A stretch of 64,000 nucleotides of DNA, taken from the NCBI GenBank assembly GCA_020852965.1, contig JADYZV010000099.1, positions 62,001 to 126,000 of the forward strand, written 5' to 3'. Under the pieces are notes generated by a model. The model was not told the DNA's origin. It saw only the letters and a list, made by a program, of their open reading frames with translations, and made no database searches. Positions 3,108 through 49,710 of the stretch are shown here, one piece after another. The position numbers and the translations under genes were made by a program. This DNA comes from Pirellulaceae bacterium. GTDB lineage: Bacteria > Planctomycetota > Planctomycetia > Pirellulales > Pirellulaceae. Each line of letters starts with the position of its first letter. The first letter of the stretch is position 1.

Positions 3108-3193
3108 TCAAACGAAGCCGGCTTTCGCTCCCCTGCCAGCGCGTCGGACAGGACATTCGCCTACGAGCCCGCGTTGAACCCCCAAGCGATCGA

Positions 3194-5272
3194 CTAGCGC
3201 TGGCGCCACGACCAAGCAAATAGATTGCGGGCATCCACATAGCGAGCTGCTGAGGACGTACTGCCCAGCACAACAACGATCAATTCACCCGCCCCTTCCA
3301 CCGGCTTACCTACAGCGATCAAGCAAGCTCCCGCCGCATTGGTCGTACCCGTCTTCATACCACTGAAGCCAACTTGCCCCAGCAAACGGTTCGTATTCTC
3401 CCAACGCAGATTGCGTGCGTAGCCCTCAGCACCAAGCACTTGCGCGCCGCGCACTCGCGTCCGCACAACCTCGCGCAATAGTGGAAGCTGCCACGCGGCC
3501 CGCGCCAAAACAGCCAAGTCCGCTGCCGAGCTCAGGTGTTCGTCGTCTGGCAAGCCGTGCGGGTTGGTGAAGTGTGAGTCGTCCATCCCCAATTCGGCCG
3601 CACGTCGATTCATGGCCGCGACAAAGTGATCGTAGGACACGCTCGCGGACGCTGGCTCCTGTCCTCCAGTGTCTTGGACGGAGGCCGCCGCCGCCACCCG
3701 AAGCCGCGTGCCGAAGTGCTCGGCCAGCGCAACCGCCGCATCATTGCCTGATGGAAGCAATAGGCCATACATCAGCTCCCGAACTGACAAACTCTCACCC
3801 GCTCGCACCCCCGACGTCGATCCCAAAGTATTGTCGGCTCGTTCGGAAAAGGTTAGCATTTCGTCCAAAATCGCGGGCTGCGAATTTGCAAGTTCGAACA
3901 CCAAGTACGCCGTCATGACTTTCGTTGTACTTGCAATCGGCAGACGTTGATGCGAGCCCACTTCACCCACCACTTCGCCTGTAACCATATCGACGCTAGT
4001 CCACGCCGTTGCGGTAACTTCGGGAGGAGCGTCGACATCCAATGCCGGTGCGAGGGGCAACTGAACCGAATTGACGACTTCCGGGGCAGGTACCGGCTCG
4101 TCTTCTTCAATTAGGCTCCCAAGGGCAAGCCATGTTGCCGAATCTACCCTTCCCGTCTCGGGCAATTGGTTGGCCAATTGAAACTTCTTGACCGCTGCCT
4201 CGGTCGCCGAACCGAAATCTCCATCGACACCCAAGCCAGCTTCGATGCGCGCGTTCAGCGTCCGCTGTAAGGATTCCACCAGTGGACCACTCGCACCGAC
4301 CGACATGGGTCGAGTTTGCGGACCTGCATTTGATTCAGCGGCCTCGGCATGGGGAGTCGCCTCGGCTCGTACCTCATCGACGACGGCGCGAGCCAGCCTT
4401 CCGATCAACACATGCGCCGCGTTGTCATCCGACCAGCTCGTGTCTTCATTCTTGTCCGTAAGCACGCAGATCGCGAACTTGACCCCTGGTCCACTGACAA
4501 CTCCGGCTGCCGTGCGCGAGCGATTGACGGAACCCGTCTTATGCGCGACCGTGAATGCCGCCGGGAGCTCTCGCGGTAGCTTGGTGGTATCATCACAAGT
4601 AAGCAGGTGTCCCAGCATGGCCTGACACGCTGCGGGCGAGACCAATTCGCCACGCTCGAGCCGCACCAGTAGATCGGTCATATCGTCCGCAGTGGTACTT
4701 CCCAGCCCATACAGCTCACTACGCTGCAGGTCAATTGATGTGTCGCGACGAAAGACCTTCGAATGCAGTTGAGTTTCGGGCCAGTTTAGATCAACCATCG
4801 TATTCGATGTGCTCGGCAACCCAATATGGTCAACCACTAGATTGGTCGCCGTGTTGTCCGAGTAGCGGATCATCAACCGAACCGCGTCGCGCAGCGATAG
4901 TGTCAACCCCGGAGAGAAGTGCGCGGTCAATATGCCTGATCCCGGAACTTGATCCTCAGCACGGAGCGTCAACATGTCATCCATCGAGACTGCGCCCACT
5001 GCGGCTTGCCGATAGGCTTCCAGCATTATCGGAAGCTTAATCAAACTCGCAGTCGGCATCACACGCTGGCCTTGGTAGTTCCAGTGACAAGTGACATTGT
5101 TGGCGTCGTCAAGCACACGCACACTCACGGCAACTTCGCCCGCATGTGCAGTCGCAAGAGGCTCGAGTGCATCTTGCAATTGCACTGCCAACGTTGTTTG
5201 CGCATGGTTCGTATCTGCGCGCTGAGCTAGAACCAGTAGCGCAACAACAAACCACAAAACAACAAACCGCAT
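3194..5272 (-). CDS. Class A beta-lactamase-like serine hydrolase / peptidoglycan-binding / D-Ala-D-Ala carboxypeptidase fusion
   Basis: Starting at the ATG at 5272 (692 residues), the protein opens with an export signal, MRFVVLWFVVALLVLAQR. The first catalytic domain has the class A beta-lactamase fold signatures: SLIK (S76, K79), SDN (138-140) and KTG (245-247). I find no clear omega-loop Glu equivalent to Glu166, so it may bind or transfer rather than rapidly hydrolyse beta-lactams. A PG_binding_1 domain follows (about 325-385, with GVDGDFGSAT). A complete S11 DD-carboxypeptidase domain ends the protein, with STTK (448-451), SGN (508-510) and KTG (640-642). It should act in the periplasm on peptidoglycan stem peptides. 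An upstream ATG at 5326 would add 18 Cys-rich residues before the signal and seems less likely. Two penicillin-binding serine enzymes in one chain is unusual. Confidence 0.87.
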   Translation of the reverse strand: MRFVVLWFVVALLVLAQRADTNHAQTTLAVQLQDALEPLATAHAGEVAVSVRVLDDANNVTCHWNYQGQRVMPTASLIKLPIMLEAYRQAAVGAVSMDDMLTLRAEDQVPGSGILTAHFSPGLTLSLRDAVRLMIRYSDNTATNLVVDHIGLPSTSNTMVDLNWPETQLHSKVFRRDTSIDLQRSELYGLGSTTADDMTDLLVRLERGELVSPAACQAMLGHLLTCDDTTKLPRELPAAFTVAHKTGSVNRSRTAAGVVSGPGVKFAICVLTDKNEDTSWSDDNAAHVLIGRLARAVVDEVRAEATPHAEAAESNAGPQTRPMSVGASGPLVESLQRTLNARIEAGLGVDGDFGSATEAAVKKFQLANQLPETGRVDSATWLALGSLIEEDEPVPAPEVVNSVQLPLAPALDVDAPPEVTATAWTSVDMVTGEVVGEVGSHQRLPIASTTKVMTAYLVFELANSQPAILDEMLTFSERADNTLGSTSGVRAGESLSVRELMYGLLLPSGNDAAVALAEHFGTRLRVAAAASVQDTGGQEPASASVSYDHFVAAMNRRAAELGMDDSHFTNPHGLPDDEHLSSAADLAVLARAAWQLPLLREVVRTRVRGAQVLGAEGYARNLRWENTNRLLGQVGFSGMKTGTTNAAGACLIAVGKPVEGAGELIVVVLGSTSSAARYVDARNLFAWSWRQR

Positions 5273-22529: not shown

Positions 22530-24689
22530 CTACGATTTGCGCTGCCAATAGGTGCCAATGTTCCACGCCAATACCGACAGCGTGATCAAACAAGTTGCCG
22601 CCAATGCAATTAAGCTCGCGATTTTGAAGCTCGATCGACCGGCGAACAATTGATTCCAATTCTTGAGCCGTGCCATGTCGGCTTGTTGCAGTTCGTGGAC
22701 CTCTACGGGAAACACATCTTGGTCGGGGACCAAACCGACCGGTTTGAGCTCTGCGAAGAAAAAGTCCGCCTCATCGCTGTGACACTGTGTACAACCTTCG
22801 GCTCCCAGTGCCTGTCGCGCGGGACGTACATTGTGAGCCAGAGGCCAAGCATAGGACTCGGCCGCTAGGCCGAGCTCTTCGCTGCTTAGTACTTTCAACT
22901 TGGAGTCGCCATCGCGCACCCAGCCGGTTCCGGCGGTGACATAGACCGCCTGTTTGCCACGAAATTCTTCTTCAATAGCCAACAGGGCGGCTTGCATCCG
23001 CTCCTCAATCTGAGCCTCGCGAACGATTTCCTCCGCCTCCTGTACCTTTTCGCGTTCCTTCGGCGTGCGTTCATCATCCTTGACACGTGCACGAGCCTCG
23101 CCCAGCAGCTCTTTGCGCTGCGCCAACGACAGACTGACTTCCCGCAGTTCCTCGGTGAACTCCTTGCGGACTTTCAACGGCTTGCGAACTAGATCGTAGG
23201 CTACCTCGGGGTTGAGCGGCTCCACTTTACCATCGCTAAGCGTCCCCCAGAACGAAGGCCAGAACAGCCGATGCGGCGTATATTTACCGTGAGTGTCGCT
23301 GGCGGCGTTCTCGCTAGCTAGGCGGTCTTCTTCGACTAGTCGGTAGTCACGCGGCAGATTGACAGGTCCCAGAATCGCCGGGAACTCCTGGCCAGTCCGT
23401 TTGACGTGCTCGCCCAGGCGATGAATGATCGAATTGACCTGGCGTGGCACCTGTTGTTCGAGCTGTGGGCCGGAGTGGCAAGCCGTGCAGCTCAGCTTCT
23501 CGAAGTGCAGAGGCGGCAAACCACGGTGAGCCGGCTTGGGGGCCCCCATGCGGCCAGCGCGAGCCAGCGGATCAGCCGTTCCCGTTTCGCTTCCTAGATG
23601 GCACCCCTGACACGACAGCGAGGCGATCAGCGAGCCAGCCACATGCCGTTCTCCTTCAAAACCGCGCACCGTATGGTGGTCCAAACCATTGCGATGACAG
23701 TCGGCACACATCATCCCCGCACGCACGTGGACATCTTCGTCATGCAACCAACGCGAGCCGGTGAGCGAGTTGGCGGGAACATTGGTGTGGCAGTAGTTGC
23801 AAGCATTGTTTTGCGGCTTGCGCACCAAATCAATAAACACCTTGCCGTCACTGCGAAAACGATTCGTGTTGTAAGTCAACTTGGGGAGCTTGCTGGCAGC
23901 ATCGGCAGCCGTTGGATCGAAGTTCTTCAGCCGAGCCATACTTCCATTGACCTCAGCCAGTCCTAGGGCGACCGTCGGTGCGTAGGCAAAGTTCTGGCTC
24001 TCGATCTGCTCGGTCCATACAAACGGGCTATAGCCACTCCCTTGATTGTTGTGACATAGCAGGCAGTCGATTGGTGTTGCCCCAGTGATCGCGCTCCGGT
24101 CGCGCTCGGCGGCGTCGGCTCCGCCAGCGTCGTTCAGTTCCGTTCCGACGGCGGAGCGTCGGGCCACACTATCAGTTTCAGTTCCGACGGCGGAGCGTCG
24201 GGCCACATTCTGGCTTGAACCAACTCCGCCACCTGGCATAAAGCCACCGAGCTTGGCGGCCACTTCCCAACGCGAGAGCCCCAAGACGTCGGGGTGGTAC
24301 GTTCCCTCCCAACCTCGATACGAAAGCGGTAAGTGAGTGCCACTGCGTGGGTCAGACCAAATCCAAGGCTGCCCGGGCCTTCCCGATTCGGCACTCGGAT
24401 CGGCTGCATTGAAGTGCCAGCCATGCGAGATCGTGTCGAATTCGTGACAGCGACCGCATGTGCGCTCCGGCGAATACGGTTGAGGGAACTCGGCAGTGGG
24501 ATCGACCTTGGTGTTATTCGCATCCAGCAGCTCAATCCAGTGGACATAGCCGCTATGACTGTCCGAGGTAGCATAGCGTCCCTGAGCCATCGCTGGGCTC
24601 GAATCGCCGCAGGCCATCGCAGAAAACAATAGCGTGAGCGCGTAGCGGCGCAATCTGTTCAAGTAGCCGAAATTGACAATGCTCAGCAC
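22530..24689 (-). CDS. Heptahaem cytochrome c, membrane-anchored
   Basis: The 719-residue protein starts at a GTG (24689) with an N-terminal signal ending near AMAQ. It holds seven CxxCH motifs: CGRCH, CLLCH, CNYCH, CADCH, CQGCH, CTACH and CTQCH. The last is followed by a C-terminal membrane helix (IASLIALAATCLITLSVLAW). An internal charged helical stretch (KEREKVQEAEEIVREAQ) separates hemes six and seven. It should act on the periplasmic face as an electron carrier, with the downstream b-type-like protein as partner. Between hemes one and two (about residues 161-183) two copies of a dispersed palindromic repeat are read in frame (NVARRSAVG, SVARRSAVG), apparently inserted into a loop. Confidence 0.86.
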   Translation of the reverse strand: MLSIVNFGYLNRLRRYALTLLFSAMACGDSSPAMAQGRYATSDSHSGYVHWIELLDANNTKVDPTAEFPQPYSPERTCGRCHEFDTISHGWHFNAADPSAESGRPGQPWIWSDPRSGTHLPLSYRGWEGTYHPDVLGLSRWEVAAKLGGFMPGGGVGSSQNVARRSAVGTETDSVARRSAVGTELNDAGGADAAERDRSAITGATPIDCLLCHNNQGSGYSPFVWTEQIESQNFAYAPTVALGLAEVNGSMARLKNFDPTAADAASKLPKLTYNTNRFRSDGKVFIDLVRKPQNNACNYCHTNVPANSLTGSRWLHDEDVHVRAGMMCADCHRNGLDHHTVRGFEGERHVAGSLIASLSCQGCHLGSETGTADPLARAGRMGAPKPAHRGLPPLHFEKLSCTACHSGPQLEQQVPRQVNSIIHRLGEHVKRTGQEFPAILGPVNLPRDYRLVEEDRLASENAASDTHGKYTPHRLFWPSFWGTLSDGKVEPLNPEVAYDLVRKPLKVRKEFTEELREVSLSLAQRKELLGEARARVKDDERTPKEREKVQEAEEIVREAQIEERMQAALLAIEEEFRGKQAVYVTAGTGWVRDGDSKLKVLSSEELGLAAESYAWPLAHNVRPARQALGAEGCTQCHSDEADFFFAELKPVGLVPDQDVFPVEVHELQQADMARLKNWNQLFAGRSSFKIASLIALAATCLITLSVLAWNIGTYWQRKS
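24142..24210. repeat. CCGACG palindrome, two copies inside the cytochrome gene
   Basis: Copies at 24142-24170 and 24181-24210, each GTTCCGACGGCGGAGCG followed by TCGGGCCACA. They start 39 bases apart, exactly 13 codons, so the reading frame is kept. The core CCGACG-GCGGAG-CGTCGG can fold as a 6-bp hairpin. The same element is found in mnmE and between genes. Confidence 0.88.
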
Positions 24690-24772
24690 GAGTCGCTTAT
24701 CCTATGGGAGAATGATCGAGTTTCCGCTGCCGCGTGGCTTGCAGCGGCACCCATTGTAGCACGTTGATATAG

Positions 24773-24821
24773 TAGCACGGTGGTCCCCCACCGTGATTTT
24801 CGGTAGGGGACCATCGAGCTA
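24773..24821. repeat. CGGTGGTCC-family hairpin, copy 2
   Basis: Left arm 24773-24793 and right arm 24801-24821 form an imperfect stem around a 7-base loop. It lies immediately at the 3' end of mnmE, overlapping its stop codon, and may have replaced the native 3' end of that gene. Confidence 0.75.
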
Positions 24822-26138
24822 CATTAATAAACTGCGCAGCCGTGCAATGGCCCCCTCGGTATCGCCCTGCTGTAGCAACTCCCTACATCGTTTCAAACTC
24901 TCGATGTGCCCGATACGAAATGGCACAGCCGTTCCCGCGTCCGGCGTCTCAGGGACCAAGATTCTCGCCATGGCGTCTTGCAAATGGTCGATACCGGTTC
25001 CGTCCGTAGCACTGGTGGCGACTATGCCCCCAAATGTTTGCTGCTCAGCGCGAGACGAATTCAATGCGCGCACCACTAAATCGGGAGCCTCGGCCCCCAT
25101 CAAGTCGGCTTTGTTGCAAACGATCATACGCCGCGCTGGGGCTAATTCGAGTAGCCGTGCGTGTTCGTCCGTCCAACCTTGCTGCGCGTCAACGACCAAC
25201 AACGCTAAATCGGCTTCGATTAATCGGTTCAAGCTACGTTCGACCCCCGCTCGCTCGATGGGCTCGCTAGCCGCACGGACACCCGCCGTGTCGGTGAAAA
25301 CGACAGGCCAGCCGTCAATCGCGCTCGACCACTCGATCCAATCACGCGTCGTGCCTGGTTGGTGATGCACGATGGCTTGTCGCGTCCCAGCCAAGGCATT
25401 GAGTAGGCTGCTTTTCCCTACATTAGGTGGCCCCGCAAGCACAATTCTCCATGGTTGTGAAAGATGCAGGCCGAAGTCTGCCCATTGGAGGAGCTGTTCT
25501 AAGCCGGCCGAGGCGAGAGAGATGTTACCAGGCTCATCCGACGCGGAGCGTCGAGCCACATTCTCGATGGCCTGATGCAATGCGCCGCTGAATTGATCGA
25601 GCAGCACTGCGGCGGCACGGTCGGTAGTGGCATTCAGAAGATCCTCTTCGGCCGCTCGAGCCAGCGGGCAACTCAGGCGACTGGGCCATTGCTCCGCCGC
25701 TACCATCACGCAGCCCGCGCTCACCAAGTCGCTCAGGAGAGCTTGGCACACCGCCGCACCGCCGTGACAGTGGACCTCCACCGTGTCTGCTTTCGGTCGA
25801 GTCAGCACCACCTGCTCTAATGTGGCCCGACGCTCCGTCGTCGGCTCTCCAGCCGTATTGAATGTAGCCCGACGCTCCGCCGCCGGCTCTGCAATTGACA
25901 ATGTGGCTCGACGCTCCGCCGTCGGATTCCTTACAGGCCCCTGCCCAACCGACGCAACCTCCCAAACGCCAAATCGCAGTGAGCCAACCGCGAGCTCGGC
26001 TCCAGAGAGGCGGACAAAGCGTTCCACGCATGAGAGTGCCAGCGGCCCCGAGATGGCCAGCGTGGCAATGGCAGCCGGCACTGCGGGAGTCAACCTCGCA
26101 ACAATCGTATTCACAAAGACTCTCTGAGGATCATTCAC
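24819..26138 (-). CDS. mnmE: tRNA modification GTPase MnmE (TrmE), with repeat insertions and no C-terminal CxGK
   Basis: The GTPase core is intact: GPPNVGKSS (G1, 236-244), PGTTRD (G2, 261-266), DTAG (G3, 283-286) and NKAD (G4, 342-345). The N-terminal tetrahydrofolate-binding domain starts NTIVARLTPAVPAAIATLAISG and continues EVHCHGG. With MnmG, MnmE installs 5-(carboxymethyl)aminomethyl groups on U34 of certain tRNAs. Two oddities stand out. Residues about 71-108 are three in-frame copies of a dispersed palindrome (ERRATL each), and a fourth is at about 192-200. Also, the chain ends GAIARLRSLLM without the C(I/L/V)GK motif needed for modification in E. coli. The start is GTG at 26138, or possibly GTG at 26114. 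No mnmG lies nearby. Confidence 0.88.
   Translation of the reverse strand: MNDPQRVFVNTIVARLTPAVPAAIATLAISGPLALSCVERFVRLSGAELAVGSLRFGVWEVASVGQGPVRNPTAERRATLSIAEPAAERRATFNTAGEPTTERRATLEQVVLTRPKADTVEVHCHGGAAVCQALLSDLVSAGCVMVAAEQWPSRLSCPLARAAEEDLLNATTDRAAAVLLDQFSGALHQAIENVARRSASDEPGNISLASAGLEQLLQWADFGLHLSQPWRIVLAGPPNVGKSSLLNALAGTRQAIVHHQPGTTRDWIEWSSAIDGWPVVFTDTAGVRAASEPIERAGVERSLNRLIEADLALLVVDAQQGWTDEHARLLELAPARRMIVCNKADLMGAEAPDLVVRALNSSRAEQQTFGGIVATSATDGTGIDHLQDAMARILVPETPDAGTAVPFRIGHIESLKRCRELLQQGDTEGAIARLRSLLM
25536..25563. repeat. CCGACG palindrome inside mnmE, degenerate copy
   Basis: ATCCGACGCGGAGCGTCG then AGCCACATTC; it lacks one G of the core compared with the others. It is read in frame as NVARRSASD between the helical and GTPase parts of MnmE. 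Confidence 0.7.
25819..25930. repeat. CCGACG palindrome, three clustered copies inside mnmE
   Basis: Copies start at 25819, 25861 and 25900, so intervals are 42 and 39 bases (14 and 13 codons). Each begins AATGTRGCYCGACGCTCCG. They are read on the minus strand as ERRATL/ERRATF units. The spacers between copies differ in sequence. Confidence 0.88.
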
Positions 26139-40742: not shown

Positions 40743-40772
40743 AATGTGGCCCGACGCTCCGCCGTCGGATTC
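40743..40772. repeat. CCGACG palindrome, intergenic copy
   Basis: AATGTGGCCCGACGCTCCGC then CGTCGGATTC, the consensus form. It lies between the LpoB-like gene and the helicase gene. Confidence 0.85.
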
Positions 40773-49516: not shown

Positions 49517-49710
49517 AATGTGGCCCGACGCTCCGCCGTCGGATTCCCTACCTATACCCCGCAATGTGGCCCGACGCTCCGCCGTCGGATTCCGCTCCCG
49601 TACCCCCGCGAGCTTGCCTTGCTGATGAATCAGTTTTTCGGCTTGCCACACCGCCCCCCCACCGACGTCGGAGCGTCGGGCCACGTTGAAACGGAGCGTC
49701 GGGGCACATG
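49517..49710. repeat. CCGACG palindromes, cluster of four copies upstream of the glycosyltransferase
   Basis: Two consensus copies start at 49517 and 49563 (46 bases apart). An inverted copy lies at 49662-49685, and a partial one (GGAGCGTCGGGGCACATG) near 49692-49710. The spacing is not a multiple of three, as expected where the element lies outside genes. Confidence 0.85.

Follow-up and report, generated by a model that had tools for sequence, protein, structure and literature searches.

GTAG-tagged repetitive extragenic palindromes (REPs) are described by Di Nocera, De Gregorio and Rocco (2013; PMC3733652) as being mobilised by REP-associated tyrosine transposases (RAYTs), and the REPs used in a survey of these transposases (TnpAREP; PMC6006769) carry either GTAG or GTGG. 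Intragenic REPs have already been published: in the 2013 study the open reading frames (ORFs) bearing REPs include DNA-repair genes, and Opitutus terrae, where most GTAG-20 repeats carry GTGG, has the most intragenic GTAG repeats (PMC3733652). Here we describe a palindromic repeat from a planctomycete, a Pirellulaceae bacterium, which was noticed inside two protein genes of a 64,000-nucleotide stretch of its genome (the window; contig JADYZV010000099.1, positions 62,001 to 126,000). By its tag, its hairpin, its copy number and its link to a RAYT, the element is a GTRG-tagged REP. It is a tagged palindrome in the range of 20-40 bp, has a high and dispersed copy number, and is mostly extragenic, as is usual for REPs, 84 of 114 arrays being not wholly within a called gene. 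The new part is that arrays have grown head to tail, with the frame kept in every multi-copy array that lies in a gene.

The resemblance to the GTAG REPs covers the short palindrome with its unpaired GTAG or GTGG tag, the hundreds of copies, the RAYT genes and the presence of some copies in genes. The differences are that multi-copy genic arrays here keep the frame in 13 of 13 cases, and that the genome's own RAYT is found only as relics. A REPtron, with that genus's version of the repeat flanking a RAYT gene, is seen in two genomes of a sister genus (G024 and G122), the genome studied here having the relics only. Among the matches listed in our literature search, no paper besides PMC3733652 deals with intragenic REPs, and none with intragenic REPs in planctomycetes; the terms 'intragenic', 'in frame' and 'within genes' are absent from the main text of PMC6006769, and 'planctomycet' from that of PMC10969869. 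REPs are thought of as extragenic, and yet about a quarter of the arrays sampled here lie within called genes, some of them encoding conserved enzymes. The genome is thus a natural test of how well proteins tolerate inserted peptides, with the same DNA used in five of the six phases, and it holds a REP family that has kept its arrays while its own transposase is apparently in ruins.

A first-pass annotation of the window had likened the copies to the Rickettsia palindromic elements (RPEs), which are likewise palindromic elements in frame in protein genes (PMC3733652, PMC10969869). That comparison is replaced here. The first RPEs measured about 150 bp (PMC10969869), whereas the present element has 25-26 bp, a GTRG tag and a sister repeat that flanks a RAYT. 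The intragenic CGTC-tagged repeats of R. conorii correspond to RPE-4 and RPE-6; a dedicated transposase is lacking for CGTC repeats (PMC3733652). In our element CGTC is found only inside the stem, the unpaired end motif being GTRG. Since neither an unpaired CGTC tag nor the lack of a transposase is seen, an RPE or CGTC repeat was rejected in favour of a RAYT-type REP.

Form and copy number of the repeat

The repeat unit is a 26-bp element, AATGTGGCCCGACGCTCCGCCGTCGG, which also occurs in a 25-bp form. The whole genome (8.37 Mb) contains 402 matches to the long form, against 3 for the reversed pattern, and 204 to the short form, against 0 for the control. A sample of 1.91 Mb, consisting of stretches from 27 contigs of the same genome, holds 212 copies (143 long, 69 short), and 0 of each of four shuffled 26-mers. 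Most of the sampled contigs were picked for holding copies (C101, C119, C155 and C56 were picked for transposase genes and C99 for the window), and the sample is therefore denser in copies than the genome as a whole. Both in the sample and genome-wide, these numbers place the full element decisively beyond chance. The bare core CCGACG-N6-CGTCGG, by which the first-pass annotation had defined the element, is weak evidence when taken alone, because its excess in the window is mild (11 matches with at most two mismatches, where 5.4 are expected; 4 of 100 shuffles reach 11).

The edges of the unit are sharp. In 90 copies with at most three mismatches to a 24-base query, the consensus base is kept in at least 90% at each position, and the two leading A's, which lie outside the query, are conserved in 98-100%; 3' of the unit there is only a weaker A/T-rich preference. 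The tag reads GTGG in 183 of the 212 copies and GTAG in 9, with other letters in the remaining 20, and is unpaired in the predicted DNA hairpin. This hairpin has a 6-bp stem and a 6-nt loop in the long form, and a 7-bp stem and a 3-nt loop in the short form. The short form, and also the sister-genus repeat described below, have a folding z of about -3 against shuffles. Rfam at gathering scores gave no match within the window.

In two places, near 3120-3250 of locus L126 (C44:23.1-23.3 kb) and near 2310-2380 of locus L107 (C39:102.3 kb), tandem shortened units are found beside full copies. In these units, AATGTGGCCCGACGCT and AATGTGGCTTCT, the tag half of the repeat alone has been multiplied.

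Arrays and reading frame

Genes in the sample were called by hexamer usage, giving a coding fraction of 79.1%. After removal of seven weak copies (3 genic, 4 intergenic) there remain 205 copies in 114 arrays, with 30 arrays wholly within genes (26 genes), 14 at gene edges and 70 intergenic. Set against 79% coding DNA, the 30 genic arrays mean that genes are avoided about threefold. Neighbouring copies stand head to tail in 82 of 91 pairs after this cleaning, the other nine having their tags outward, and the sampled arrays, scattered over the contigs, have no more than four units each. In the 25 same-strand arrays of at least three copies, the identity of spacers averages 0.79 within arrays (34 comparisons) and 0.48 between arrays (163 comparisons), and this likeness of spacers within an array indicates that arrays grow mostly by tandem duplication of the repeat together with its flank.

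Frame was analysed in same-strand arrays of at least two copies. Every gap is a multiple of three in all 13 genic arrays, a figure that stayed the same on removal of the weak copies, whereas this holds for 2 of the 6 at edges and 11 of the 22 between genes. Counted singly, the gaps divisible by three are 25/25 in genes, 3/13 at edges and 18/37 between genes. Fisher's test of genic against intergenic gives p=0.002 by arrays and 8e-6 by gaps, and against intergenic and edge together (21/50 gaps) 0.001 by arrays and 1.5e-7 by gaps; the values by arrays are the safer ones, because the gaps of one array are not independent. The first-pass annotation had held that the insertions kept both proteins open, and had called for a genome-wide count by frame; in the sample this count bears it out. 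Its further proposal, selection for frame, is sustained by the contrast between genic and intergenic arrays, with the change that the spacing in multiples of three mainly reflects duplications that have been filtered; the contrast is weaker under a stricter test given below.

Five of the six phases occur among the 30 genic arrays: antisense 1 (8 arrays), sense 0 (7), antisense 0 (6), sense 2 (5) and antisense 2 (4). The one unused phase is sense 1, in which the leading AA becomes a TAA stop whenever T precedes. The start of ten arrays coincides exactly with the TAA stop codon of a gene read in the sense direction (for example at C9:79229, C25:1093 and C99:50423), and repeats placed on TAA stops may be a source of new stops for shortened genes. 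All six frames of the GTGG form are free of stop codons, so that a tolerated GTGG copy can be read as a peptide of 8-9 residues.

Copies, host genes and relatives

Of the ten copies in the window, two belong to a cytochrome gene and four to an mnmE-like gene; a single one lies at 40743 and a group of three at 49517-49687. With their host genes, they are:

22530..24689, minus strand: multihaem c-type cytochrome gene, 719 aa; Pfam Cytochrome_C7 and Cytochrom_c3_2; seven CxxCH counted by eye in the translation
24145..24170, minus strand: REP copy, 26-bp form, sense in the cytochrome gene; encodes (S)VARRSAVG
24184..24209, minus strand: REP copy, 26-bp form, sense in the cytochrome gene, 39 bp from the preceding copy; encodes NVARRSAVG
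24819..26138, minus strand: mnmE-like tRNA modification GTPase gene, 439 aa; TrmE_N and MMR_HSR1; below the NCBIfam MnmE cut-offs
25538..25562, minus strand: REP copy, 25-bp form, sense in the mnmE-like gene; compared with 16 of 17 aligned relatives, the protein gains 3 residues net
25819..25844, plus strand: REP copy, antisense in the mnmE-like gene; reads PTTERRATL
25861..25886, plus strand: REP copy with GTAG tag, antisense in the mnmE-like gene; reads PAAERRATF
25900..25925, plus strand: REP copy, antisense in the mnmE-like gene; reads PTAERRATL
40743..40768, plus strand: single REP copy, intergenic by gene calls
49517..49542, plus strand: REP copy at the 5' edge of a minus-strand ORF with an uncertain start; the next copy follows at a spacing of 46
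49563..49588, plus strand: REP copy, head-to-tail partner of 49517
49662..49687, minus strand: REP copy in opposite orientation, tags facing outward

All copies named in the first-pass annotation are real and within a few bases of where it had put them, and its spacings (39, 42 and 39 inside genes, 46 for the pair at 49517 and 49563) are right; the copies at 40743 and 49662 had been left out. It had placed the pair at 49517 and 49563 outside genes. Our calls put this pair at an edge, at the 5' end of an ORF whose start is uncertain, and it is therefore neither plainly intergenic nor convincingly coding.

The idea that the copies are insertions was examined by comparison with relatives. In the mnmE-like protein, for which 17 of 29 fetched relatives were aligned, residues 67-104 (about 38 residues, covering the triple array) have no counterpart in most of them; the peptide is present in 0 of the 17, a few of which have unrelated inserts there. 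The fourth copy, at 25538, behaves differently, as discussed below. In the cytochrome, the two copies lie in a hypervariable linker (aa 161-182). Usable alignments came from relatives in nine genomes, one further fragment being unusable and three fetched loci not being aligned, and none of these relatives has the peptide. The length of the linker varies so widely among them that the extent of the cytochrome insertion cannot be fixed.

Two further genes lie outside the window. In an NqrF-like reductase, all 12 aligned relatives (13 fetched) have a gap of 26 residues where one full copy and a truncated one lie, and they are 33-38 residues shorter over the stretch compared. For a flavin adenine dinucleotide (FAD) oxidoreductase, each of the 13 relatives fetched falls short by 20-32 residues in the stretch compared, and the closest lacks exactly the 23 residues that come from two copies and their spacer. 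The extra residues are thus missing from aligned relatives in three of the four insertions whose extent can be judged, which together with the 402 and 204 genomic matches upholds the view of the copies as insertions of a dispersed palindromic repeat.

A further 27 genic proteins were scanned against Pfam, three of them carrying only copies later discarded as weak. Seven have no match. The other hosts comprise, among others, a protein kinase, an MFS transporter, an ABC ATPase whose ABC domain is present twice, a protein with a class I tRNA synthetase domain, and a decarboxylase. The matches in proteins of this genome also include Planctomycete cytochrome C, in keeping with its placing among planctomycetes. 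At C20:15537-18471 (L127), two adjacent genes both contain REP copies, one matching IMS and DUF6504 (below cut-offs) and the other RecA. This pair is possibly ImuB/ImuA-like.

Between the cytochrome and mnmE-like genes, at 24772-24822, the window also contains a second, GTAG-tagged palindromic repeat with an inverted partner. The stop codon of the mnmE-like ORF is the TAG from the tag of this inverted partner.

The transposase and the origin of the arrays

When 241 genomes of the family (the present one included) were searched with one mismatch allowed, the element was matched in its own genome and three times in one genome of a sister genus. A broader exact pattern, applied to 396 genomes drawn from the order, has matches in four, namely the present genome and three of the same sister genus. 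With two mismatches, 20 of 40 genomes (again including this one) have matches, in most cases about as many as the reversed control gives. The exception is G024, with 15 against 1, and G028 (6 against 2) and G036 (9 against 0) are somewhat above their controls. The stem of the sister-genus repeat is of the ACGACG/CGTCGT type in six of seven stretches, both sides having changed together, and in the seventh (G112) it differs at one end only.

In G024 and G122 the sister-genus repeat, GT[AG]GCACGACGCTCCGCCGTCGT, is found on both sides of a RAYT gene. These two genes score 23.8 and 23.1 bits with Pfam Y1_Tnp (cut-off 23), and 49.6 and 50.1 bits with NCBIfam REP_Tyr_transpos (NF047646), below its cut-off of 80; the protein of locus L132 scores 23.8 and 49.6 bits respectively. 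The action of the RAYT on the repeat, in the form of binding, cleavage and transposition, is putative. Relatives of this RAYT occur in 20 of 40 genomes, the present one included. Thirty of their loci were fetched and 19 examined: 11 have repeated GTRG hairpins nearby and 8 have none by the same test, and seven of the 11 share a CTCCG loop on different stems. Beside the RAYT of G011 stands a same-genus REP, for which that genome gives only 12 matches. The present genome itself has two tandem N-terminal RAYT fragments (C101:26376-26912), 60-62% identical and each preceded by copies of the REP described here. They cover at most residues 2-68 of the 222 of the query, and are therefore relics without the catalytic part.

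We consider it very probable that the element is a REP that was mobilised by a RAYT since reduced to relics, that its arrays grew in place, and that within genes it survives only in frame and at tolerant sites. The element would be a miniature non-autonomous member of a RAYT system (HUH Y1 tyrosine transposase), mostly GTGG-tagged. A cognate RAYT would have spread the copies before being lost, and single copies would then have built up head-to-tail arrays in place, for the most part by duplicating in tandem, each REP together with a short flank. Insertions and duplications in genes would survive only where the frame is kept and the site, such as a loop or linker, tolerates extra residues, the rest being purged. 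The copy number, the tag, the predicted hairpin, the RAYT association in the sister genus, the relic, the frame statistics and the absence of the residues from aligned relatives are shown by the data; the transposition step, the purging and the neutrality of the added peptides are inferred.

One alternative is that there is no selection for frame, and that spacing in multiples of three is a by-product of array formation, for example through favoured periods of 30, 36, 39, 42 and 45 bp. The intergenic gaps are indeed divisible by three more often than one in three (18/37), and a stricter coding criterion gives only p=0.06; but the genic gaps are divisible without exception, and the contrast with intergenic arrays is significant both by gaps and by arrays, which makes this improbable. 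It is equally improbable that the added peptides or mRNA hairpins have been domesticated and are now functional, for example in regulating expression or assembly. An RNA hairpin could act at the ten arrays lying exactly on TAA stops, and several genic copies are in enzymes with strong Pfam matches. Against this, the phases, the peptides and the host proteins are mutually unrelated, and the threefold under-representation in coding DNA fits tolerance and not use.

Two other explanations have a much smaller chance of being correct. One is that the peptides are ordinary protein repeats, native and of low complexity, with the likeness in DNA secondary to repeated amino acids; the variable length of the cytochrome linker in relatives speaks for it. 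Against it, the same DNA is read in five phases and on both strands within genes and is found in 70 intergenic arrays of 114, and the aligned relatives lack the peptides; we regard this as very improbable. An array of CRISPR type, or one that acquires spacers in some other way, is brought to mind by the short palindromic repeats and by spacers of even length within an array. CRISPR spacers should be unrelated, whereas here they are mostly near copies of each other within an array (the mean identity of 0.79 given above), in scattered arrays of no more than four units. A CRISPR array was rejected on these grounds, and its probability is close to nil.

Several observations weigh against the favoured explanation, RAYT-driven spread followed by growth in place and survival in frame. 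The RAYT of the sister genus only just passes, or misses, the curated cut-offs, and no intact RAYT of the sister clade was found in the present genome, although with 199 contigs an intact copy may lie in a gap. The fold of the long form is not exceptional, being equalled or bettered by 12 of 200 shuffles (z -1.56). The two spacers of the mnmE triple array are only 0.50 identical, and comparisons in three other arrays give 0.20-0.40, so that duplication is not shown for every array. The gene calls behind the frame statistics rest on a home-made hexamer caller. When a clear coding signal is demanded on both sides, the frame is kept in 9/10 genic arrays and in 17/32 of the rest (Fisher p=0.06); under this rule several arrays close to the ends of genes, including the mnmE triple array, are counted in the other class. 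In the strictest test, both flanks are coding in only 14/117 arrays; 13 of these keep the frame, none has a same-strand frameshift and one has a change of strand, compared with 1856 of 1914 random points with two coding flanks that keep one frame. These flank-only and strict two-sided ORF tests gave a less clear picture than the gene calls. Both forms occur in genes (14 copies of 25 bp, 41 of 26 bp), and no single fixed length of insertion would be in frame for both, which implies that the net length varies as flank is gained or lost. A conceivable reading takes AA as the target and 24 bp as the unit inserted. Exact empty sites were not found, and the mnmE copy at 25538 adds only 3 residues net compared with 16 of 17 relatives, where 8-9 would be expected, and is therefore not a clean insertion.

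The tag may have a part in this history. In sense phase 2, used by five arrays, a GTAG tag would close the frame by TAG, and this is the basis for the idea that GTGG favours life in genes. The second, GTAG-tagged repeat family (50 copies in the sample) has 4/35 arrays in genes, compared with 30/114 for the main element (p=0.07). This lower share is suggestive and agrees with the idea, short of significance. A bolder version is that a change from GTAG to GTGG removed the only stop codon of the family and so enabled both its spread in genes and its head-to-tail growth, that after the death of the transposase duplication alone extends host proteins, and that the stop-free tag, and not purging alone, is a cause of the many genic copies. 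We hold this version to be unlikely. If it were true, REPs that duplicate after transposase loss would be a source of new linkers and loops. The genome is also a natural test for an effect of a single-base difference in the tag on the places that REPs can occupy.

A search with PF01797 identified seven Y1 genes in the present genome. None has the present REP beside it in flanks of up to 1.5 kb (L036 and L037 being near contig ends), and the closest copy stands some 1.1 kb away from the ORF of L031. Some of these genes resemble the TIRtrons or TIRYT elements (PMC3733652) in having GGGGTCAG-type ends, which are unrelated in sequence to the REP element. Such ends are present on both sides of the Y1 transposase gene at L034 (C119), and at the 5' end of that at L035 (C56), where the ORF is cut short. 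At L031 (C48:59922-63263), an IS200-type transposase gene is followed by a long tandem run of (AATGACC/AATGACA)n, and a further repeat family with CTACGCTCCACCC cores lies around it.

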